NCBI GenBank assembly: GCA_017622925.1
Contig: JAGAQC010000037.1
Span: 1-42,363, forward strand
Reading direction: 5' to 3'
DNA: 42,363 bases
Source of the DNA: Ruminococcus sp.
Lineage (GTDB): Bacteria; Bacillota; Clostridia; Oscillospirales; Ruminococcaceae
This document shows positions 8,926-42,239 of the stretch, one piece after another; positions within the stretch are counted from its first letter, which is position 1, and every line of letters begins with the position of its first letter. The position numbers and the translations under genes were made by a program. The notes under the pieces were generated by a model. It worked only from the letters and a program-made list of their open reading frames with translations. It did no database searches and had not been told where the DNA came from.

Positions 8926-8954
8926 TTGCAATTTCAGACAGAATATGATATAAT
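8926..8954 (+). promoter_or_regulatory. Promoter of the sensor/AraC regulator gene
   Basis: TTGCAA (8926-8931) and TATAAT (8949-8954), 17-bp spacer. The start codon is about 280 nt further on, so transcripts would carry a long 5' leader that contains the whole 9014-9189 multi-hairpin repeat. Confidence 0.75.
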
Positions 8955-9013
8955 AGTCTATAGATATAAACAGATTTTAAAATCACTGTCACAACTTTAG
9001 TGGGGGCTTTATT

Positions 9014-9189
9014 AGGGAACGCCCTCTCTTGCAGGGCGTTCCCTCTTTTCAAACAGTCATGCTGACTGTTTGAAAATTCACCCTTTGCGGAGCGCTTAAA
9101 CGCTATGCAGGGCTTCGCCCCGCCCCCCACCAGAGGCGCTGCCTCTGGACTCCGCCAAAGGGACACCGTCCCTTTGGAATCCCGATGTT
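9014..9189 (+). repeat. Multi-hairpin repeat, copy 1
   Basis: First of three copies (others at 15104 and 27657), about 175 bp each, all in the same orientation. In order: a 12-bp stem (AGGGAACGCCCT/AGGGCGTTCCCT), a 13-bp stem (9046-9058 with 9064-9076), AGCG/CGCT, a weak GGGC/GCCC hairpin, CCAGAGGC/GCCTCTGG and CCAAAGGGAC/GTCCCTTTGG. Only this copy is also bracketed by 10-bp inverted repeats, ACAACTTTAG (8991-9000) and CTAAAGTTGT (9196-9205). Open frames through it, such as 8858-9166 on the minus strand, are spurious. Confidence 0.9.
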
Positions 9190-9237
9190 GGTTCGCTAAA
9201 GTTGTTGAAACATGTCTGATGTAAAGTAGGTGAAAAT

Positions 9238-11475
9238 GTGAAAAAACGTCTTTTAATAGGTGTTATCATTACGGAATGTCAGGAGGACTTTCAGGCGGAA
9301 ATACTTAAAGGTATCATTTCTCAGGCATACAAAACCAACTGCGATACGGCTATACTTGCGCCGCTTCATAATTTTTCCCTGCAAACGCCCCACAAGCAGA
9401 CAGGAAAAGAGATATTCAAGCTTATTCTGTCCGAGCGTTTTGACGGTTTTCTTTACGACCGCAATACTTTTTATGACGAAAGCGTAAAGTCCGCGGTGGA
9501 GAACCTGCTTATCAGATCGGGCAAGCCCGTTATGCTTCTTGACAGCGAGGAACACAGCGTTTTTGAGTCTACCGCCATTGACGACTGCTCGGCTTTTGAG
9601 CAGATAACCGACCACCTTATCAACGTTCACGGACTAAAAAAAATATACTGCCTTACAGGACCGAAAAATGCGTTCGTTTCGGAGGAACGTCTTAAAGGCT
9701 TTAAAATTTCCATGAAAAAGCACGGTCTTTATTACGACAAAAGCTCCTGCATTTACGGCGATTTTTGGCAGGACGCCGCTGTGGAGCTTGCGAAAAAGAT
9801 AATAAACGGCGAACTCAGCCGTCCCGAAGCCGTTGTATGCGGCAACGACCATTCCGCTATAGTTCTTGCGGAAACGCTCATAAAAGGCGGAATAAGAGTT
9901 CCCGAGGATATTGCCGTTACGGGATACGACTACTCCGCAGAGGGACAGCAGAACGAGCCGAAAATAACAAGCTACCGCCGCCCGAATTTTCAGCTCGGCG
10001 CAGAGGCGTTCAGACGGATATACCGCATGATAACCGGCAAGATATGCCGAAAGGTACATAACGAGAGCGGCGATCTCTGCATCGGTAAAAGCTGCGGCTG
10101 CCGCGATATTCCGCATAAAGAAGCTTCAAGAGCCGACAGGGTGATGCGTAAGTACGAAAACGATATTCTGAACAGGGACATGCTGTTTGATATTGCAAAC
10201 ACATCGGATATCAAGGAATTTGCGGACCGTCTGGATAACTACACCTACTATATTTACAAGCTGAAACGGCTCAATATCTGCCTGACCCGAAAGTATACGG
10301 AGTGCCGCAGCGGAAAATATACCGATAAGCTGACGTTCGATATAGGCGACGAAATGAACGTGATATTGTCGAAAACGTCCGTAAAGAGAGATTACGATGG
10401 CTGCGTCGGTTTCAGCTCTGCGGACATTCTGCCCGTATTCGGCGAGGAAAGACCTTATCCGTCAGCGTATTTTATAACGCCGCTGAATTTCAACGGGAAT
10501 TTCTTCGGCTATTCCGCCGTGACTTTCGGAAAATCGCCCATAAGCTTCAACGGGATATATCTCTACTGGATAAACTACATAAATATTGCGCTTGAACAAA
10601 TACGCATAAAGTCTATCCTTGACAGCACGGTCACTAACGCCAGCCGAGCTATACTTTATGACGATGTTACGGGACTTCTCAACAGGTCGGGCGTTAAAAA
10701 AGCGTTTGCCGAGCGGTTGGAGGACTTCCGCAAACGCAGCGATAACGCCGATTTCATACGCATTCAGCTTTCGGGACTGAACGACGCTTACTATCAGGGC
10801 GACGACGATAAATGCGGCAGAATAACCGCCGCCTTTGCGCGTCTTATCGGAAGCTGTGTTAAGTCGGAGGAAATTTACGGTCTGTGGTCTGTTTACTCCT
10901 TTGCAGTCATAACGCCTTACCCCAACCGAAGCGAGGAAATTTTCAAGCAGCTTTCGGAGGAGGTGCGCAGATCGCGTTTTTCCGCCGAAGAAAACTGCAA
11001 TATCAATTTTACCGTAGGCGTTGACAGTCAGCGTCTTACGCCCGAGCCTTCTCCGGGAACGTCGCTTCATAAGGCGGCAGTCCACAGAGTACACAGCTAC
11101 ACAGTCTCGGAAAGCGCCGAGAATCCGCAGTATGACAAGCTTTGCCTGCTTCGTGGACGGCTTATGAAAAATCCCGAACTGCCGTGGAACATTAACGATA
11201 TTGCTTCGGAGCTTTACCTCAGCAAGAGTTATCTCCAAAAAATGTACAAGCTCTATTTCGGCAAAAGCATAATCGAAGAAATGATAAGCTTTCGGCTTGC
11301 AAAGTCAAAGGAGCTGCTTATCCACTCGGACATGACCGTTACCGATATTGCCAAGGAGTGCGGATATTCCTCGTATAATTACTTCGTCCGTCAGTTCAAA
11401 GCCGCCGAGCAGGTCTCCCCCACGGAATACCGCGATCTTCATGTTCCCCATGAAGTAACGGTCGATCAATCATAA
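9238..11475 (+). CDS. One-component regulator: LacI-like sugar sensor, degenerate GGDEF, AraC-type HTH
   Basis: The 745-aa cytoplasmic protein has three parts. Residues 1-290 form a periplasmic-binding-protein-like sensor of the LacI/GalR type (KKRLLIGVI start, VVCGNDHSA, AVTGYDYS) ending in the SCGC motif, but with no LacI HTH. Residues about 470-610 resemble a GGDEF domain (DDVTGLLNRSG is the usual entry motif), but the GG[DE]EF signature is replaced by WSVYSFAV, so it should not make cyclic-di-GMP. Residues about 640-735 are an AraC double HTH (WNINDIASELYLSKSYLQKMY and MTVTDIAKECGYSSYNYFVRQFK). GTG 9238 has AGGTG 5 nt upstream. It is divergent from the pectin lyase gene and overlaps the stop of the convergent binding-protein gene by 10 bp. 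Carbohydrate-responsive activation of the lyase is inferred. Confidence 0.88.
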   Translation: MKKRLLIGVIITECQEDFQAEILKGIISQAYKTNCDTAILAPLHNFSLQTPHKQTGKEIFKLILSERFDGFLYDRNTFYDESVKSAVENLLIRSGKPVMLLDSEEHSVFESTAIDDCSAFEQITDHLINVHGLKKIYCLTGPKNAFVSEERLKGFKISMKKHGLYYDKSSCIYGDFWQDAAVELAKKIINGELSRPEAVVCGNDHSAIVLAETLIKGGIRVPEDIAVTGYDYSAEGQQNEPKITSYRRPNFQLGAEAFRRIYRMITGKICRKVHNESGDLCIGKSCGCRDIPHKEASRADRVMRKYENDILNRDMLFDIANTSDIKEFADRLDNYTYYIYKLKRLNICLTRKYTECRSGKYTDKLTFDIGDEMNVILSKTSVKRDYDGCVGFSSADILPVFGEERPYPSAYFITPLNFNGNFFGYSAVTFGKSPISFNGIYLYWINYINIALEQIRIKSILDSTVTNASRAILYDDVTGLLNRSGVKKAFAERLEDFRKRSDNADFIRIQLSGLNDAYYQGDDDKCGRITAAFARLIGSCVKSEEIYGLWSVYSFAVITPYPNRSEEIFKQLSEEVRRSRFSAEENCNINFTVGVDSQRLTPEPSPGTSLHKAAVHRVHSYTVSESAENPQYDKLCLLRGRLMKNPELPWNINDIASELYLSKSYLQKMYKLYFGKSIIEEMISFRLAKSKELLIHSDMTVTDIAKECGYSSYNYFVRQFKAAEQVSPTEYRDLHVPHEVTVDQS

Positions 11476-15103: not shown

Positions 15104-15278
15104 AGGGAACGCCCTCTCTTGCAGGGCGTTCCCTCTTTCAAAACAGTCCTATGGACTGTTTTGAAATTCACCCTTTGCGGAGCGCTTAACGCTTTGTGGG
15201 ATGCTGTCCCACACCCTGCCAGAGGCGCTGCCTCTGGACTCCGCCAAAGGGACACCGTCCCTTTGGAATCCCGATGTT
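15104..15278 (+). repeat. Multi-hairpin repeat, copy 2
   Basis: Stems: 15104-15115/15123-15134 (12 bp), 15136-15149/15153-15166 (14 bp, 3-nt loop), AGCG/CGCT, TGTGGGA/TCCCACA (15195-15213), CCAGAGGC/GCCTCTGG (15219-15237) and CCAAAGGGAC/GTCCCTTTGG (15244-15266). The right end overlaps the stop codon of the transketolase C-terminal subunit (15277-15279). No T-run follows any stem on either strand, so it does not look like a terminator. Confidence 0.9.
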
Positions 15279-16245
15279 AGTCCGCTTTAGCTGTTTTAAA
15301 CTTAAGAGAAATAGCTTCTCTTACTTTTTTGACGATATTATCGGCGGAAAGTCCGAATTCTTTCAGAAGATCGACAGCAGGACCCGAATGACCGAATTCA
15401 TCGTTTACGCCTATCTTCACTACGGGAACGGGGCAGCACTCCGTAACAGCTTCGGCTACGGCAGAACCAAGTCCACCGATAACGCTGTGTTCCTCAGCCG
15501 TAACAATAACGCCCGTTTCCTTTGCGCACTTGCAGATAAGCTCCTTGTCGAGGGGCTTTATTGTATGGATATTTACGACCCTTACGGAAATTCCCTCGGC
15601 TTCGAGAGTTTTTGCAGCTTCAAGAGCCTCGTTTACCATAAGTCCCGTAGCGGCAACGGTAACGTCTGTTCCGTCTTTCAGGACAACGCCCTTGCCAAGC
15701 TCGAATTTATATGTCTCGGCGTCGTTGATTATCGGAACGGCAAGTCGTCCGAAACGCATATAAACAGGACCGTTGAAGTCCAAAGCAGCTCTTACAGCCG
15801 CACGAGCCTCAACATCGTCGCAGGGATTTATAACAGTCATGCCGGGTATCGTCCTCATAAGGGCAATATCCTCGTTGCACTGGTGAGTCGCTCCGTCCTC
15901 GCCTACGGAGATGCCTGCGTGAGTTGCGCCTATTTTTACGTTAAGATGAGGATAGCCGATAGAATTGCGGACTATTTCATAAGCTCGGCCTGCTGCAAAC
16001 ATAGCGAAAGTGCTTGCAAAGGGTATCTTTCCGCTTGCCGCAAGTCCTGCCGCCACGCCCATCATATTGGCTTCGGCAATTCCGCAGTCGAAAAAGCGGT
16101 CGGGATAGGCTTTCTTGAAAATACCTGTTTTTGTAGCCGCAGCAAGGTCGGCGTCAAGCACGACCAGATCCTTATATTCCTCGGCAAGGTCTCTCAGCGC
16201 CTCGCCGTAGCTTTCTCTTGTAGCCTTTTTGATAACGTCTGCCAT
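15277..16245 (-). CDS. Transketolase, C-terminal subunit
   Basis: Pyrimidine-binding and C-terminal half of a split transketolase, which moves two-carbon ketol units in the non-oxidative pentose phosphate pathway. The 322 residues show the Transket_pyr core: DLVVLDADLAAATKTG, RFFDCGIAEANMMGVAAGLA (the Glu that activates thiamine diphosphate lies in IAEANM), PFASTFAMFAAGRAYE and THAGISVGEDGATHQ. The C-terminal domain runs from about 190 (VTVAATGLMVNEALEAA, EEHSVIGGLGSAVAE). Its start is 4 nt after the stop of the N-terminal subunit gene, with GGAGG inside that gene's last codons, so the two are coupled. Split transketolases are normal in Clostridia. Confidence 0.95.
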   Translation of the reverse strand: MADVIKKATRESYGEALRDLAEEYKDLVVLDADLAAATKTGIFKKAYPDRFFDCGIAEANMMGVAAGLAASGKIPFASTFAMFAAGRAYEIVRNSIGYPHLNVKIGATHAGISVGEDGATHQCNEDIALMRTIPGMTVINPCDDVEARAAVRAALDFNGPVYMRFGRLAVPIINDAETYKFELGKGVVLKDGTDVTVAATGLMVNEALEAAKTLEAEGISVRVVNIHTIKPLDKELICKCAKETGVIVTAEEHSVIGGLGSAVAEAVTECCPVPVVKIGVNDEFGHSGPAVDLLKEFGLSADNIVKKVREAISLKFKTAKAD

Positions 16246-17101: not shown

Positions 17102-17929
17102 TTATACGTTTATAGTATTGCAATTTGCAAATATGTGATCTATAAGCTCTGCCACCGCGCCCTCGTCATTCGTTCTGCCGAGGACAATATCGGCGGCGTT
17201 TTTTACCGTTTCTTCGGCGTTTGCAGGACACGCTCCGATGTCCGCCGCCTTTATCATTTCAAGGTCGTTGTCAAAATCGCCTATAGAAACGAACGTAAAG
17301 TCCTCCATTCCCTCCAAACGGCGATATTCCTCCAAAGCAGTCCCCTTGCTGATACCTTTCGGGAGCATTTCAAGGAATATTTCAGAGGACTTCACAAAAT
17401 CGACCTCTTTTTCATACCCGAGCTGACGCACCAAAAGCTCCAGATTCGGCACGTCCTCGGGAGCAAGAGCGAAAAGGACTTTCAGCCAGCCGCCCTCGGG
17501 TATCTCCGTAATGTCCTTATAATGCGGAGTAATGCCGCACAGACGTGTATGGAGCTGCTGATATTCCGTATTGCTGAAAACATATGTACCCTCGGCGGTC
17601 AGGACTTCGCCGCCGACCTCGGGCATAAGTCTCAGTATCTCGGCGGTCATGGTTCGCGCAGTATCGGGAAGCGGATGCGAGCTGAGAAGCTTCCCCTTGC
17701 CGTAATCGTATATCGCTCCGCCGTTATACATTATTATCGGCTCACGCAGGTCAATTATGCTTCGGTACTGCTCAAAGGACTGTATCGTTCTGCCCGTGGC
17801 GACCGTGAATCTGCCGCCCATTGCGATAAACCTGTCTAACGCCGCTCTGTCGGTATCGTTTATCTGTTTTCGGGAATTAAGGAGAGTTCCGTCCATGTCG
17901 CTCAGCAAGATAGTTTTGTTAATATCCAT
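17102..17929 (-). CDS. Cof-type HAD-superfamily phosphatase
   Basis: The 275-aa protein belongs to the Cof/YidA class of HAD hydrolases, which dephosphorylate sugar phosphates and related small metabolites. Visible motifs: I, LLSDMDGTLL with nucleophile D11 and acid/base D13; II, TVATGRT; III, a Lys in GISKGTAL; IV, SIGDFDNDLEMI. The C2B cap lies between motifs II and III (about 85-190). The C-terminus has AADIVLGRTNDEGAVAELI, typical of the family. It is followed directly by the transketolase pair, which may hint at a pentose-phosphate link, but substrates of this class cannot be read from sequence. Its upstream gap is filled by the long-hairpin element 17941-18100. Confidence 0.92.
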   Translation of the reverse strand: MDINKTILLSDMDGTLLNSRKQINDTDRAALDRFIAMGGRFTVATGRTIQSFEQYRSIIDLREPIIMYNGGAIYDYGKGKLLSSHPLPDTARTMTAEILRLMPEVGGEVLTAEGTYVFSNTEYQQLHTRLCGITPHYKDITEIPEGGWLKVLFALAPEDVPNLELLVRQLGYEKEVDFVKSSEIFLEMLPKGISKGTALEEYRRLEGMEDFTFVSIGDFDNDLEMIKAADIGACPANAEETVKNAADIVLGRTNDEGAVAELIDHIFANCNTINV

Positions 17930-26608: not shown

Positions 26609-27568
26609 CTATACATTATACCACATTATTCCGTATTTTGCTATAGCTTTTTGGGATTTTTCAAAAATTTCACATTTTTTACTAAAATCATCAATAATTA
26701 TCCACTCAATACTGTCATTTTTTCTAAACCATGTAAGCTGTCTCTTGGCGTAACGCCTTGTTTCCTGCTTTATTTTATCTATGCAGTCCTCCAGAGACAT
26801 GGTATTTTCAAAATACGGTATAAGCTCCTTGTAGCCGATAGCGTTTGCGGCGGTTTTCATCGGAGAGGAACTCCAAAGCTCCCGAGCCTCCTCCACAAGA
26901 CCGGCTTTCACCATTTCGTCTACCCTTTTGTTTATCATGTCGTAAAGTACGGCTCGGTCGGCATAATTCAACCCGAGTATCAAAGAATCGTAAGGACTTT
27001 CAACAAGACGGCTCTCCGCTTTAAGTTCGCTGAATTTTCTGCCCGAAACATGAATTACCTCCAACGCCCGAACCACACGGACAAGGTTGTTCATATGAAC
27101 AGACTCCGCCGCTTTCGGGTCTGCCGAAAGCAGCTTTTCATACAGTGCGGCGTTGCCGTTTTCCTCTGCATAGCGGTAAAGCTCGCGGCGGTAGGCTTCG
27201 TCGCTTTTTATCTCGGAGAAATTGACGTTATTCAGCAGAGAATCTATATAAAGTCCCGTACCTCCCACGATTATGGGCAGCTTTCCCCGACTGAGAATGT
27301 CCTCTGTCTTTTCACGGGCAAGCTTTACATAGTCCGCCGCGCTGAACGTCACGCTTCGGTCGAGAAAATCTATCAGGTGGTGAGGAACGCCTTTCATTTC
27401 CGCAGCGGTGGGTTTTGCGGAGGCAATGTCCATTCCCTTGTATATCTGCATGGAATCGGCTGAGATCACTTCGCCGTTAAGAGCGAGAGCAAGCTCGACG
27501 CCCAGCCATGTTTTTCCGCTTGCGGTAGGTCCGCATACGGCAAGAACTTTAGGTTTGTTTTTTTCCAT
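26609..27568 (-). CDS. miaA: tRNA dimethylallyltransferase
   Basis: Adds a dimethylallyl group to A37 of tRNAs reading UNN codons. The 319 aa start with the P-loop VCGPTASGKTWLGVELA, then GEVISADSMQIYKGMDIASAKPT, HHLIDFLD, LPIIVGGTGLYIDSLL, LILGLNYADRAVLYDMINKRVDEM and the C-terminal KQETRRYAKRQLTWFRKN. The true start is 27568: a longer open frame continues upstream through the 27657-27831 repeat and is an artefact. A weak site, AAGGGGG, lies 12 nt upstream. Its product is the substrate for MiaB, encoded at 36703-38049. Confidence 0.96.
   Translation of the reverse strand: MEKNKPKVLAVCGPTASGKTWLGVELALALNGEVISADSMQIYKGMDIASAKPTAAEMKGVPHHLIDFLDRSVTFSAADYVKLAREKTEDILSRGKLPIIVGGTGLYIDSLLNNVNFSEIKSDEAYRRELYRYAEENGNAALYEKLLSADPKAAESVHMNNLVRVVRALEVIHVSGRKFSELKAESRLVESPYDSLILGLNYADRAVLYDMINKRVDEMVKAGLVEEARELWSSSPMKTAANAIGYKELIPYFENTMSLEDCIDKIKQETRRYAKRQLTWFRKNDSIEWIIIDDFSKKCEIFEKSQKAIAKYGIMWYNV
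26615..26623 (-). promoter_or_regulatory. Candidate extended -10 promoter for hfq
   Basis: Minus-strand TGGTATAAT inside the last codons of miaA matches an extended -10 (TGnTATAAT). No good -35 is seen. It would allow hfq-HlyD-yggS transcription independent of miaA. Confidence 0.5.
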
Positions 27569-27656
27569 ATAAGCAACGATCCCCCTTGACGTCAATATCA
27601 GCAGATTAAGTAATTTTGTCTCTTTTGTATGGACACGGATTGCCGTGTCTGTAATA

Positions 27657-27831
27657 AGGGAACGCCCTCTCTTGCAGGGCGTTCCCTCTTTCCAAACAGT
27701 CCTGCGAACTGTTTGGAAATTCACCCTTTGCGGAGCGCTTAACGCTTTGTGGGACGCTGTCCCACACCCTGCCAGAGGCGCTGCCTCTGGACTCCGCCAA
27801 AGGGACACCGTCCCTTTGGAATCCCAATGTT
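27657..27831 (+). repeat. Multi-hairpin repeat, copy 3
   Basis: Same order of stems as copies 1 and 2: 12-bp AGGGAACGCCCT stem, second stem 27689-27700/27708-27719 (TTTCCAAACAGT with ACTGTTTGGAAA, compensated relative to the other copies), GTGGGA/TCCCAC, CCAGAGGC/GCCTCTGG, CCAAAGGGAC/GTCCCTTTGG. It lies between mutL and miaA. A separate small hairpin, GACACGG/CCGTGTC, precedes it at about 27632-27649. Confidence 0.9.
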
Positions 27832-27861: not shown

Positions 27862-29832
27862 TCAAGTTCTCTTGAATTGATGATCTATATTCGCTTTTGT
27901 CATGGTAAACATAACGGGTCTGCCATGCGGACAATGACGTATTTTTTCATCTGAAAATATCTGCTCCGCCAATGCTTTCATTTCCTCGGGGGTACTCTTG
28001 TCGTGCGCCTTTATTGCCGCCTTACACGCCATATTATGCAGAACGTCGTCCAGATAACCCGACTGCGGATCATGCTTGTGCATGAGCAGATTTTCCGCTA
28101 CCTCGCATATTATCCCCTCTGCGTCTGAATCCGTTATAAACGTCGGCAGAGCTGTAGCGGTCACGTATGGCTTTTCGCCAAAATCAAAGGCAAATCCCAA
28201 GTCCTCCAGAAGCTCCGTATTATTCTCCAAAACGTCTATCTCCTCGGAGGTCAGAAGAAGCTTTATTCCCACAAGCAGCTTTTGGCTGTACTGACGGCAG
28301 TTGCGGCTTTTCAGACGCTCGAAAATTATTCGCTCGTGGGCGGCATGCTTATCTATTATTACAAGCTTCCCCTCGCTCTCAACGATAACGTACAAGCCGA
28401 ACGCTTCGCCTATTACCTTTATTTCGGGGAGCTGCGGCTGCTCGTCCGACTGCTCGGGCATCGGCTTAGGTTCGTCCTTTTTCTCAAAGGAGCTTACGTT
28501 AAGATACTTGAACCCCTCGTCCGCCGCTTCAGCCGCCGCGCGTACAGCTTCCAAATCGAGCTTTTCAAGGTCGAGCAGGGGACGTTCGTCCTTCGGCTCG
28601 CTCCTCATTACAACGTACTCCGACTCCCCCTCGGGCTTTTCGTCAAGCACGCTCCACTCGGAATGCGAACCTGCAAGTTCCGTCTGCGGTTCGGGAACTG
28701 CGCTTTCGGTCTCACGCAGTTCAGCCTCCTTTTTGGCTATCTCCGATATGGGCGTAAACATTATCTCCTGCTGTACGGGAGCTTCGGGTTCTTCATGCTT
28801 GTACCAGTCGCGCTTTTCCTTTGTCTCAAACTCGTATACAAGTCCGCCGTTGATAAAAGCGTTTTTCACCGCGAAATATACTGCGTTAGTCACGGCTTTT
28901 TCGTCTGTGAATCGCACCTCCGCTTTAGTCGGGTGGATATTCACGTCAAGCATGGACGGGTGCATTTCTATCATGAGAACGCACGCCGGAAAACGTCCCG
29001 TCATTATCATATTTTGGTAGGCGTTTTCAAGGGACGAGGAACAAAGACGTGACTTTACATATCTGCCGTTTATGAAGAAATTCTGAAAAGACCTGTTGAA
29101 CTTGGCGTACAGCGGCTTCACCGTATAGCCGCTTACTCTGATACCGTCCGCTTCATATTCCACAGGGAGGAGATCGCGTGTAAAATCCTTGCCGAAAACG
29201 GCGTATACAGCGGAATAAAGCTCTCCGTCCCCTGCGGAATTGAACTCCATACGATTATCCCTGATCATTTTCACGGCAATATCGGGGTGAGACAATGCTA
29301 TTTTTTGCACTATATTGCTCACAGCGTTTGCTTCGGTAACGTCCTTTTTCATGAACTTCGCACGGGCGGGAACGTTATAAAAAATATCCCGTATAATTAT
29401 TGTCGTACCGTCGGGACAGCCGCTTTTTTCATGGGACTTTTCCTCGCTGCCCTCAATGGAATATACCGTTCCGTAAGTCTCGTCCTTCTGCTTTGTCATG
29501 ACCTCTACCCTCGATACGGCGCAGATCGAAGCAAGGGCTTCTCCCCTGAACCCGAGGGTATATATATTATCCAAATCCTCTTTTGAAACTATCTTGCTTG
29601 TGGCATGACGAAGAAACGCTTTCGGAACGTCCTCAAAGGAGATTCCGCAGCCGTCGTCGGTAACTCGCATATAAGTCGAGCCGCCGTTTTTTATCTCAAC
29701 GGTGATGTGCCTTGCGCCCGAATCTATGGAGTTTTCCACAAGCTCCTTGATGACCGAGGACGGTCGCTCGATGACCTCCCCTGCGGCGATAAGCTCCGAT
29801 ATTTCTTTGCTTAAAACATTTATTGAGGGCAT
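27862..29832 (-). CDS. mutL: DNA mismatch repair protein MutL
   Basis: Links MutS recognition to strand removal. The 656 aa have an N-terminal GHKL ATPase (about 1-330: IAAGEVIERPSSVIKELVENSIDSGA, DDGCGI, TLGFRGEALASI) and a C-terminal dimerisation/endonuclease domain (about 465-650). The nuclease motif DKHAAHERIIFE fits DQHAxxExxxxE, and ACKAAIKAHD and CPHGRPVMFTM complete the site, so this is a nicking MutL. The linker is acidic and Glu/Pro-rich. ATG 29832 has GGGAAAGGAT 6-8 nt upstream; an ATG at 29850 lacks a site. mutS lies upstream, separated by element B. Confidence 0.97.
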   Translation of the reverse strand: MPSINVLSKEISELIAAGEVIERPSSVIKELVENSIDSGARHITVEIKNGGSTYMRVTDDGCGISFEDVPKAFLRHATSKIVSKEDLDNIYTLGFRGEALASICAVSRVEVMTKQKDETYGTVYSIEGSEEKSHEKSGCPDGTTIIIRDIFYNVPARAKFMKKDVTEANAVSNIVQKIALSHPDIAVKMIRDNRMEFNSAGDGELYSAVYAVFGKDFTRDLLPVEYEADGIRVSGYTVKPLYAKFNRSFQNFFINGRYVKSRLCSSSLENAYQNMIMTGRFPACVLMIEMHPSMLDVNIHPTKAEVRFTDEKAVTNAVYFAVKNAFINGGLVYEFETKEKRDWYKHEEPEAPVQQEIMFTPISEIAKKEAELRETESAVPEPQTELAGSHSEWSVLDEKPEGESEYVVMRSEPKDERPLLDLEKLDLEAVRAAAEAADEGFKYLNVSSFEKKDEPKPMPEQSDEQPQLPEIKVIGEAFGLYVIVESEGKLVIIDKHAAHERIIFERLKSRNCRQYSQKLLVGIKLLLTSEEIDVLENNTELLEDLGFAFDFGEKPYVTATALPTFITDSDAEGIICEVAENLLMHKHDPQSGYLDDVLHNMACKAAIKAHDKSTPEEMKALAEQIFSDEKIRHCPHGRPVMFTMTKANIDHQFKRT

Positions 29833-29890
29833 TTTTTTATCCTTTCCCATTCATTGTCCGCAGCTTCACGTCCAACCTTGAAGCGTATTT

Positions 29891-39573: not shown

Positions 39574-41646
39574 TTATTCTTCGTCTTTCTTAGCGATCGT
39601 GAATGATTTGAATACCATACCGCTTCCGATGATCACCGTAACTATCGCCATGAGCCACATCATAAGATTTGCGAACGAGTTGACACCCGTCTGCGGCAAA
39701 TCTATTTCCTCGTTGGACGAGTTATTGCCAACGCCTGTCTTAGGGTCAATAGTATATGTGTCAAGCAGTTCGCCCGATTCGTCCAACAATGCTATAACAT
39801 ACATTCCGTTTTCATCAACAGTAAGTTCTGTACGCGCAGCCGTCACGCCCGTTTTGCTCTGATAATCGTTGATCGCCCAGCAGCAGAAGTCGTCGTCGGA
39901 CGCCACATTGCTTGCTGTTGTAGTCGTTACAGGCTTGGTTACTGTTGTTGTAGCTGTCGTTGTTAGTTTTGTTGTGGTTGTAGTGGGCTTTGTTGATGTA
40001 GATGTGGTCGTTGTAGGTCTTGTTGTGGTCGATGTGGTCGTAGTAGTCGCAGTTGTAGAAGTCGTTGTAACCGCCTCGTCTATTGCTACGAATTTTCTTT
40101 CGTGTTTTTCAGCGTATGCCTGTGCGGTAGAGTTAGCATAGCCGTAAATCGTACCGTCAAAATAATAACCTTGACTGCTTCCATGACCGTTTGAAATTGT
40201 GCATTTGTTATCGTCAATTTCACATTCGGGGTTGAGAATGGTGATTTTTCTAAGTCCGTCACAATCCGAAAACGCCCCGTAACAGATGCTCTTAACGTTT
40301 TCGGGAATAACTACATCGCCAAAGCAGGTCTTGCCGTCGATCAGCATTTCATTTACGATAACAAGCGGATCTTCTTCCCGTTTGGATTCAAGCCACGGCG
40401 TGTTCTGAAACGCCTCGTAGCCAATACTTGTAACGCTTTCGGGTATGGTAATTTCTTTCAGTCCTGTGCATTCTGAAAACGCCTGCTCTCCAATGCTTGT
40501 AACGCCGTCGGGTATGGCGATATCTGTCAGCCCTGTGCAGCCAGAAAATGCCTGTTTTCCAATGCTTGTAACGCCGTTGGGTATGGCGATATCTGTCAGC
40601 CCAGTGCAGCCCGAAAACGCCTCTTTTCCAATATTGATAACGCTGTCGGGAATGGTAATTTCTTTAAGTCCCGAGCATTCTGAAAACATCATATACCCAA
40701 TATCGGTAACGCCGTCGGGTATGTTGATTTTTGGCAGTCTCGTGCAGCCGCTGAATGCCGCATTGCCAATACTTGTTACGCTGTCGGGTATAGCTATAGA
40801 TGTGATATATTGTGCGCCGTCAAACGCTCCTCCGCTAATACTTGTAACGCCGTCGGGAATAACTACATCGCTGTAGCAGTTTCTGCCGTCAACTAAAATT
40901 CCGTTTACGATGACTAACGAATTTTCTTCTTGTTTGGCTTCAAGCCACGGCGTATGACTAAACGCGCTCCCCCCGATACTTGCAACACTGTCGGGAATAG
41001 TGATCACTTCCAGCGATTCGCAGTACGAAAACGCGCTCCCTCCGATACTTGTAACGCTGTCGGGAATGGTGACCTCTTTCAGCGATTTGCAGTACAAAAA
41101 CGCAGAAGAACCGATACTTGTAACGCTATTTGGGATAACGATCTCCGACAAAACGCTGCAATAGTAAAATGCGCCTGAACCAATACTTGTCACGCTGTCG
41201 GGGATAGTGAACTTTTTCAAATGCATACATTCGTTAAATGTATAAGGCGCAATACTTGTAATGCTATTTGGGAGGTTGATCTCTTCCAACGCAAAACATC
41301 CGTCAAACGCAGCCTCGCCAATATTCGTCACGCTGTCGGGTATAACGATCTTTACCAATTCATGGCACCAATCAAACGCCCTTTCTCCGATACTTGTAAC
41401 AGGCAAACCGTCAATTTCGGCAGGGATAACAACTTCTTTCGCTCCCGTCATTTCGTCACAACATGTGATCTCAATATGATCGCCATAATTCCTGTAAGTA
41501 AGCAATTCGTAAGTACCCTCGGTGTACTCATCAGCCGCAGATGCCGTAATAACGGCTTTATCCGCAGTTTTTCCGCCTACAGACGGCAAAGCTCCTCCGA
41601 TAACGCAGAAAGCAAGAACGCCCGCTAAAAATTTTCTAACATTCAT
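39574..41646 (-). CDS. LPXTG-anchored BspA-like leucine-rich-repeat surface protein
   Basis: The 690 aa comprise: signal peptide (1-38, ASA site); about 15 LRR_5/TpLRR units of 23 residues (about 75-500) of the pattern IPDSVTSIGxxAFxxCxxL; two longer units with a near-duplicate insert (TPWLEaKqEEnsLVIVN and TPWLEsKrEEdpLVIVN, each followed by DVVIP); a Thr-rich stalk (about 530-585); a small domain (DFCCWAINDYQSKTG to YTIDPKTGVG); and the sortase signal LPQTG (650-654) with hydrophobic helix and charged tail KKDEE. Sortase A would link it to peptidoglycan. BspA-like repeats mediate adhesion to proteins, hosts or substrates in other bacteria; the ligand here is unknown. GAGGAGGT precedes ATG 41646. 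Confidence 0.95.
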   Translation of the reverse strand: MNVRKFLAGVLAFCVIGGALPSVGGKTADKAVITASAADEYTEGTYELLTYRNYGDHIEITCCDEMTGAKEVVIPAEIDGLPVTSIGERAFDWCHELVKIVIPDSVTNIGEAAFDGCFALEEINLPNSITSIAPYTFNECMHLKKFTIPDSVTSIGSGAFYYCSVLSEIVIPNSVTSIGSSAFLYCKSLKEVTIPDSVTSIGGSAFSYCESLEVITIPDSVASIGGSAFSHTPWLEAKQEENSLVIVNGILVDGRNCYSDVVIPDGVTSISGGAFDGAQYITSIAIPDSVTSIGNAAFSGCTRLPKINIPDGVTDIGYMMFSECSGLKEITIPDSVINIGKEAFSGCTGLTDIAIPNGVTSIGKQAFSGCTGLTDIAIPDGVTSIGEQAFSECTGLKEITIPESVTSIGYEAFQNTPWLESKREEDPLVIVNEMLIDGKTCFGDVVIPENVKSICYGAFSDCDGLRKITILNPECEIDDNKCTISNGHGSSQGYYFDGTIYGYANSTAQAYAEKHERKFVAIDEAVTTTSTTATTTTTSTTTRPTTTTSTSTKPTTTTTKLTTTATTTVTKPVTTTTASNVASDDDFCCWAINDYQSKTGVTAARTELTVDENGMYVIALLDESGELLDTYTIDPKTGVGNNSSNEEIDLPQTGVNSFANLMMWLMAIVTVIIGSGMVFKSFTIAKKDEE

Positions 41647-41815: not shown

Positions 41816-41942
41816 TGTCCATTTTGTCACATTTTGTCCCATTTTGTCACGTTTCCAAAAACGCCGTTTTTTGCCTGTATTACGTAGTTTCATTCCATTT
41901 TGTCAATTTTGTCAATTTTGTCACCCGGGGTAAGACTTGAAA
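41816..41942 (-). repeat. Intergenic mosaic repeat, copy 3
   Basis: Contains TTTTGTCAC/TTTTGTCAA 9-mers (the reverse complement of the GTGACAAAA family), tttgcctgtattacgt (41870-41885) and the CACCCGGGGTAAGA end (to 41935). Relative to copy 1, the tttgcctg module keeps its orientation while the CCCGGG module is inverted. Confidence 0.75.
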
Positions 41943-41947
41943 AAGCA

Positions 41948-42211
41948 GCGTGTCGCTGCACCCATTGCCGACCGTATTCTTATGAACGGGATATGCGTCC
42001 CCGTAGCAGCAATTCACAGGGAACGGCAAATAACAAAAGAAGCGTGTCGCTGCACCCATTGCCGACCGTATTCTTATGTAAGGGATATGCGTCCCCGTAG
42101 CAGCAATTCACAGGGAACGGCAAATAACAAAAGAAGCGTGTCGCTGCACCCATTGCCGACCGTATTCTTATGAACGTGATATGTGTCCCCGTAGCCGCAA
42201 TTCTCAGGAAA
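41948..42211 (+). repeat. 94-bp tandem repeat, about 2.8 copies
   Basis: Units start at 41948, 42042 and 42136 (gcgtgtcgctgcacccattg). Units 1 and 2 are nearly identical; unit 3 has more changes and is cut short where the 28-bp repeat begins. The unit starts with the same hairpin as the 55-bp repeats. All three frames contain only short open stretches, so it is not coding. Confidence 0.85.
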
Positions 42212-42239
42212 CGGGACGTCGAGGGCGCCGTCCCCTACA
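42212..42239 (+). repeat. 28-bp repeat, right-edge copy
   Basis: Identical to 49-76 (starts cgggacgtcgagggcgccgt). The left arm of the palindrome seen at 1-20 is not present here, so it is a half-copy. From 42240 to 42363 no gene can be supported. Confidence 0.85.

Follow-up and report, generated by a model that had tools for sequence, protein, structure and literature searches.

The string of hairpins at position 9014 belongs to a repeat family that is abundant in gut Ruminococcus, reaching roughly one hundred copies in a genome, and its members are probably non-autonomous mobile DNA elements of a new, hairpin-rich and MITE-like family. The conserved core, consisting of stem-loops H1 and H2 and an adjoining sequence block, would be carried inside short vehicles that differ in their ends between species. 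The window, i.e., the whole stretch of DNA analysed (42,363 nt), is contig C7 of a Ruminococcus-like genome of 2.5 Mb (76 contigs, 88% complete), referred to below as the source genome.

Three copies were located in the window, all on the forward strand and at the positions given in the initial annotation (Table 1), which had also described their shared order of stem-loops and quoted their H2 arms correctly. Its extent for copy 1 holds for the conserved body but is too short for the element, as inverted repeats reach out on both sides of it. Copy 1 folds with −102.9 kcal/mol, compared to a shuffle mean of −65.8 (sd 4.3; z −8.6; 0 of 200 shuffles as good). It lies 49 bp upstream of a gene with periplasmic-binding and AraC-type domains, and copy 3 lies 30 bp after the mutL stop. 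Hairpins like the one upstream of copy 3 also precede several other copies in the source genome.

Table 1. Features of the hairpin elements in the window (positions are those of the window).
Feature	Position	Strand	Remarks
Copy 1, conserved body (H1, H2, block, 3′ hairpins)	9014..9189	+	Edges from 61 aligned copies of the source genome
H1	9014..9044	+	12-bp stem, CTCTTGC loop, almost constant
H2	9046..9076	+	14-bp stem, variable but paired
Block TTCACCCTTTGCGGAGCGC	9077..9095	+	Almost constant
3′ hairpins	9096..9189	+	Lineage-specific, modular
Left terminal inverted repeat of copy 1, CACTGTCACAACTTTAG	8984..9000	+	10/10 inverted match ACAACTTTAG with right end
Right terminal inverted repeat of copy 1	9196..9213	-	
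Copy 2	15104..15278	+	3′ end abuts the stop of a transketolase C-terminal gene (15277-16245, -)
Copy 3	27657..27831	+	Between mutL (27862-29850, -) and miaA (26609-27568, -)
Extra hairpin upstream of copy 3, GACACGGATTGCCGTGTC	27632..27649	+	
Empty site	17115..17132	+	The related genome (L100) has a sister MITE here, with ends of this type and a direct repeat of 16-17 bp

An alignment of 61 copies from the source genome showed mean conservation of 0.996 for both H1 (55/61 exact) and the block, 0.817 for H2 and 0.924 for the 3′ part, compared to 0.48 and 0.46 for the flanks. The 5′ edge of the body is sharp, at AAGGGAACG, while the 3′ edge, near GATGTTAGTTCGCTTAAGTT, is softer. Loci read across species have H1, H2 and the block in common; their 3′ hairpins and 5′ flanks are lineage-specific and modular. 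Genome G018 carries a second type of H1, with paired changes, and its own type of block stands alongside in 10/10 cases. In A1, L191 and L192 the block (CCCTTGCAGAGCG) is almost a repetition of the right-hand half of H1 (CTCTTGCAGAGCG in the second type), as though a single protein might bind at both. Conservation of the block (CCCTTTGCGGAG) is not attributed to pairing with CTCCGCCAAAGGG in the 3′ part, because a pattern search gave no such partner in 57 of the 140 block-bearing copies listed.

A covariance model of the 80-nt core (R1) was made from 77 sequences (76 distinct), which include copies of the source genome and omit L052, a locus without H2. At E 0.01 this model gave 111 matches in the source genome, some of which represent the H2 palindrome read backwards. 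Stretches fetched from the same genome (61 sources) held 88 matches at E 1e-4. Of these, 72 were strong and complete (71 spanning 80 nt and one 74 nt), 10 were complete with a lower score (eight with a nested insert and a length of 131 nt), 5 were truncated at contig ends and 1 was weak. From these 88, 81 copies entered the analysis of gene context, and subsets of 71 and 61 were used for the end scan and the conservation alignment, respectively.

Among 39 relatives searched, at least one core match was found in 17 of the 23 genomes of the same genus (from 0 to 116 matches each, in some cases a lone weak one), and one weak match in 1 of the 16 genomes from other families. The genomes reached through loci with an exact H1 all contained the core (17/17, with 6-120 matches each). 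An exact H1 search of named genomes returned at least 91 stretches, mostly from Ruminococcus and rabbit-gut Clostridia assemblies; loci L039-L129 were picked by this exact 31-base match, so that the constancy of H1 in them is by construction, the block and H2 lying outside the pattern. Among the assemblies with an exact H1, that of uncultured Ruminococcus sp. Lapin-033 (CANQVK) shares about 87-93% identity with stretches of the source genome over long alignments. The element is not unique to its locus, having many copies in the source genome and in relatives. A metagenome-assembled genome labelled Alistipes (JAMPAJ; L060 and other loci) also carries the element. One of its loci (L063) is 78-82% identical to L163 of the source genome over about 2 kb, and because of this the label, or the binning, looks doubtful.

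The compensatory changes that had been described in the second stem are borne out by the larger set of copies. Double changes occur in 13 of the 14 H2 pairs, and the 77 sequences give 119 double-change cells (a level reached by 0 of 500 shuffles) compared to 4 one-sided and 23 unpaired; over both helices, 98.8% of cells pair. In 103 distinct H2 sequences (three of the 106 were dropped), 1394 of 1436 pairs are Watson-Crick, and stems broken without compensation are thus not the rule. The departures (9 GT, 14 AC, 19 other) are small in number, roughly what unselected single mutations would give, and show no excess of G-U wobble on either strand. From this lack of a G-U excess, H2 pairing looks to be kept at the DNA level rather than through RNA wobble.

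Orthologous sites in two Ruminococcus genomes were compared as six pairs, of which five had a comparable H2 (the source-genome copy of the other carries an insert) and one was without a 3′ flank. H2 was alike at 129 of 158 positions (0.816) and still palindromic, whereas the flanks reached 0.88-0.91. The block agreed at 86/86 aligned positions and H1 at 180/180, the Lapin side having been chosen by exact H1. L100 has the element at the site of copy 2, where its H2 differs from that of copy 2 and is compensated. H2 may have been replaced at such sites through palindrome-templated repair or by conversion from other copies, and either sequence constraint or homogenisation may have kept H1 and the block. 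Covariation in H2 alone does not show selection on an RNA, because palindrome repair and gene conversion between copies can also change both arms. The earlier proposal of a selected fold, as RNA or as hairpin DNA, therefore stands as far as pairing is kept through changes in both arms, and falls short where selection on an RNA is to be read from covariation alone. What appeared to be an RNA covariation signal becomes a case of both arms changing together with no wobble excess, and a caution for RNA discovery by covariation.

The strong covariation of H2 would also be expected of a functional structured RNA (a 3′-UTR stability element, an sRNA or a regulatory RNA) kept by selection on its fold, and the best support for such an RNA comes from gene context, here based on gene calls from a simple codon-usage script. 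The 3′ end of the 81 copies of the source genome faces a gene stop in 46 cases and a start in 24 (46/70; median 29.5 bp to the stop), while the 5′ end faces a start in 49 and a stop in 29 (29/78; Fisher p 6e-4 for stop-facing at the two ends). Gaps between co-directional genes are divided 35 vs 13 (p 0.002), and many mRNAs would therefore carry the complement of the element just after the stop. Stop-facing 3′ ends were likewise common in G018 (13/14), CANQVK (9/13), JAMPAJ (8/12) and R. flavefaciens XPD3002 (6/9). These counts tend to favour an orientation effect in Ruminococcus, for which an RNA role could account. Of 24 cases in six rabbit-gut Clostridia assemblies, however, the 3′ end faces a stop in only 10, and neither the wobble counts nor the greater divergence of H2 than of its flanks at orthologous sites fits selection on an RNA fold. 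No Rfam family matched the window at the gathering score, and a relaxed search of 8950-9260 gave just mir-4879 and SprD (E 0.13 and 0.26), far below gathering. The small-RNA family considered at first is so far not supported by these searches or by the wobble counts, and we regard a conserved RNA as unlikely.

Evidence for mobility comes from the ends of the copies. The terminal-repeat pattern TATCCACAACTTAAG, with at most two mismatches, gave 86 sites compared to 4 for the reversed control. The 18-bp terminal inverted repeat CACTATCCACAACTTAAG was detected (at least 12/18) at both ends of 14 of 71 copies, at the left end of 23 and at the right end of 26, the shuffled fractions being 4% and 2%. 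The outer flanks of the 14 two-ended copies match each other best at a length of 10 bp (0.643 vs 0.394; 0 of 2000 shuffles), although two of these copies, both in L143, share one 10-mer; at 9 bp the values are 0.413 vs 0.330 (p 0.016), and all other lengths from 5 to 14 give p ≥ 0.18. Comparison of flanks for inverted repeats in 38 copies gave a value slightly above the control (9.8 vs 8.2), and the inverted-repeat signal lies in a subset of copies. Within the window, the ends of copy 1 resemble CACTATCCACAACTTAAG and score just 10/18 and 12/18 in the ungapped scan, with no matching 10-bp duplication seen beside it, and copies 2 and 3 have no recognisable terminal repeats.

One copy with these ends, in L143 (6452), is absent from the same place in a sister genome (L127), giving an occupied and an empty version of one site. 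The other unequal core sites that were compared between sister genomes are not clean empty sites, and one looked like a deletion by recombination. The same ends also bound sister MITEs of about 220-280 bp that lack the core and have different hairpin-rich interiors (L210-L217, L223-L229). By reading, 10-bp duplications are clear around those in L211 (of which L212 is the reverse), L213 and L215, and nearly so in L217; in L211 and L213 the duplication crosses a stop codon. Three contigs of the source genome (C3, C42 and C52) end about 120 bp inside near-identical sequence that begins with these ends, as expected of a multi-copy insertion sequence. The copies might instead be old, passive repeats, without function or current mobility, that have been kept alike by gene conversion alone. 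Replaced H2 and different inner modules at orthologous sites would fit this, as would the many copies without recognisable ends, but the L143/L127 difference involves intact ends and copy number is uneven among congeners (0 to 116 matches), and purely passive repeats seem decidedly unlikely.

Other repeats occur in the same material. L143 (2841-3150), L170 (737-1048) and L124 (2317-2598) contain a second MITE-like repeat, whose ends resemble AATCAATTTTAAGGTTTACAG and which includes an internal inverted repeat, CGTGAATTGGACTGTGG. A GC-rich double-hairpin module (CCCTCTGTCA..TGACATCTCCC..GGGAGTCACCC and variants) is nested in different repeat families (L188, L138, L217, L053, L072), with no obvious duplication around it. 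The window itself carries tandem repeats at 40339-41355 and 41941-42222, with spacings of 69 bp (one family, 9 copies) and 94 bp (3 copies).

A candidate for the mobilising enzyme was found in G059, where the same end is followed by an ORF that weakly matches the N-terminus of IS4-family transposases (E 1.7e-5; 24.1 bits compared to a curated cut-off of 115). An arginine-repressor model also matched this ORF (E 0.008), and Pfam gave no match. The IS231 subgroup of this family is marked by a DDE transposase with a YREK motif; this N-terminal ORF, in G059 only, is what the searches returned, and no intact transposase with these ends was obtained. A protein search with the IS4-like fragment was negative in 24/24 genomes, the source genome included, and says little, as the set was without a known carrier. 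For the vehicle of the source genome, an IS4-type transposase is likely rather than proven.

A different vehicle carries the core in R. flavefaciens XPD3002. Twenty fetched stretches and three earlier loci (23 in all) gave 22 rows, L252 giving none, and represent 21 sites, as L117 is the site of L237. In 13 of the 22 rows the core is flanked by a duplicated, terminator-like stem-loop (median score 21 vs 7.5; control 99% value 12), the match between the two sides being well above that of shuffled flank pairs. The duplicated stretch is 24-29 bp long in 11 of the 13, 34 bp in L249 and 52 bp in L246. By reading, it holds a stem-loop, complete except in L240, and its right copy is often followed by T-rich sequence. 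This vehicle has the ends TGTCAAAAAAG, and a search with the end pattern gave 14 sites compared to 5 in the control, many of them just before known cores, with no separate insertion sequence recognised among them.

The stem-loop duplication was also found in 2 of 5 copies of UBA6407. In the source genome, 2 of 57 copies pass the threshold, neither with a palindromic repeat, as does 1 of 23 in the rabbit Clostridia (also not palindromic); G018 (0/15) and CANQVK (0/13) gave none, and neither did JAMPAJ (0/14) and other Ruminococcus (0/10), for which the test was weak, with thresholds inflated by alike flanks. Homologues of the gene that precedes one of the duplication-flanked copies, in L053 (66-76% alike, some of them paralogues), are without the core in the 19 other loci returned, and in several of these (L255, L256, L258-L262) a single stem-loop and T-run follow the stop, by reading. 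G018 has pairs of cores of unlike type in head-to-head orientation, each pair enclosing a terminator-like hairpin (L190, L192), between genes that are convergent by reading.

The duplicated stem-loops of XPD3002, and the hairpin enclosed by the paired cores of G018, would suit transcription terminators multiplied by selection. The hairpins of the core, however, are without a T-run by reading, any T-run belonging to a separate, flanking hairpin. In the three window copies, H1 leads into CTTTTC or CTTTC, and no T-run follows it, H2 or the 3′ hairpins, consistent with the earlier view that plain termination does not explain the string. A scan for a stem plus T-run, stricter than reading and with random stretches giving about 3% per 110 bp, called 5 and 2 of 56 copies on the two strands in the 110 bp on the 5′ side in the source genome; in XPD3002 it called 1 and 7 of 19 on the 5′ side and 5 and 4 of 19 on the 3′ side, where the windows were 225 bp. 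Multiplied terminators are accordingly a highly improbable account of the family.

Taken as a MITE-like family, the elements can be described as follows. In the source genome, the vehicle is bounded by IS4/IS231-like terminal inverted repeats (CACTATCCACAACTTAAG), and AT-rich targets, frequently at gene ends, are duplicated over 10 bp; an IS4-family insertion sequence with matching ends would supply the DDE transposase that moves it in trans by cut-and-paste. In XPD3002, the core lies in the other vehicle beside terminator-like stem-loops, with the stem-loop present on both sides, and these may act as terminators. The palindromes would be a property of the DNA, with the arms of H2 kept complementary by palindrome-templated repair, by gene conversion between copies, or both, and with H1 and the block constrained in sequence, perhaps as protein-binding sites. 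Some observations count against a plain MITE. Both ends are recognisable in just 14 of 71 copies, and the core is conserved beyond the ends, which is unexpected; the same core with different outer ends is not what a plain MITE would predict.

A bolder and tentative proposal, doubtful as it stands, builds on this sharing of one core by different ends: the core itself would be a recognised mobility module that has moved between unrelated vehicles. In R. flavefaciens it would target intrinsic terminators and duplicate the whole stem-loop, leaving the host gene with a functional terminator, and H2, between its constant neighbours, would diversify as a DNA hairpin. If true, this would represent a terminator-targeting class of mobile element with duplications of stem-loop length, and insertion of this kind would show how an element can enter gene ends without harm to the host gene.

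REP sequences and BIMEs are dispersed extragenic palindromes, sometimes in head-to-head pairs, and their Y1 (RAYT) transposition is not known to leave inverted repeats or target duplications. The element resembles them as a dispersed family of palindromes near gene ends, with head-to-head pairs in G018, and to that extent the initial comparison with REP/BIME in concept holds; it is longer, has terminal repeats and 10-bp duplications in a subset of copies, and no Y1 transposase was found (PF01797, 0 matches in the one genome searched, the 88% complete source genome; 5 of 14 controls positive), making REP/BIME repeats moved by RAYT the least probable origin.

Literature searches by core and end strings found none in the papers covered, and those on Ruminococcus repeats, IS231 and insertion into terminators gave no such element among the matches listed. 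The closest parallels are by description. According to Table 1 of PMC2266710, the IS231 subgroup has ends CAT-------AA--TAA--- and a duplication of 10-12 bp, and the same source describes it as almost confined to the Bacillus cereus group. Like IS4-family MITEs of the IS231 type, the element is short; its ends match all but one of the 8 fixed positions (7 of 8, the third base being different), and its 10-bp duplication falls within the range of the subgroup (PMC2266710). It departs from them in having a core common to species with other ends, in that most copies are without recognisable ends, and in that no intact transposase was found. The BOX, RUP and SPRITE repeats of pneumococci are, as described in PMC3049150, small, non-autonomous, stem-loop-forming, nested and located near gene ends, all features shared by the element, and BOX is likewise modular (PMC10969869 is also cited for the likeness to MITEs and to BOX, RUP and SPRITE). 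This likeness is one of description, and the element is set apart from these repeats by a core common to many species and, in XPD3002, by the stem-loop duplicated around it.
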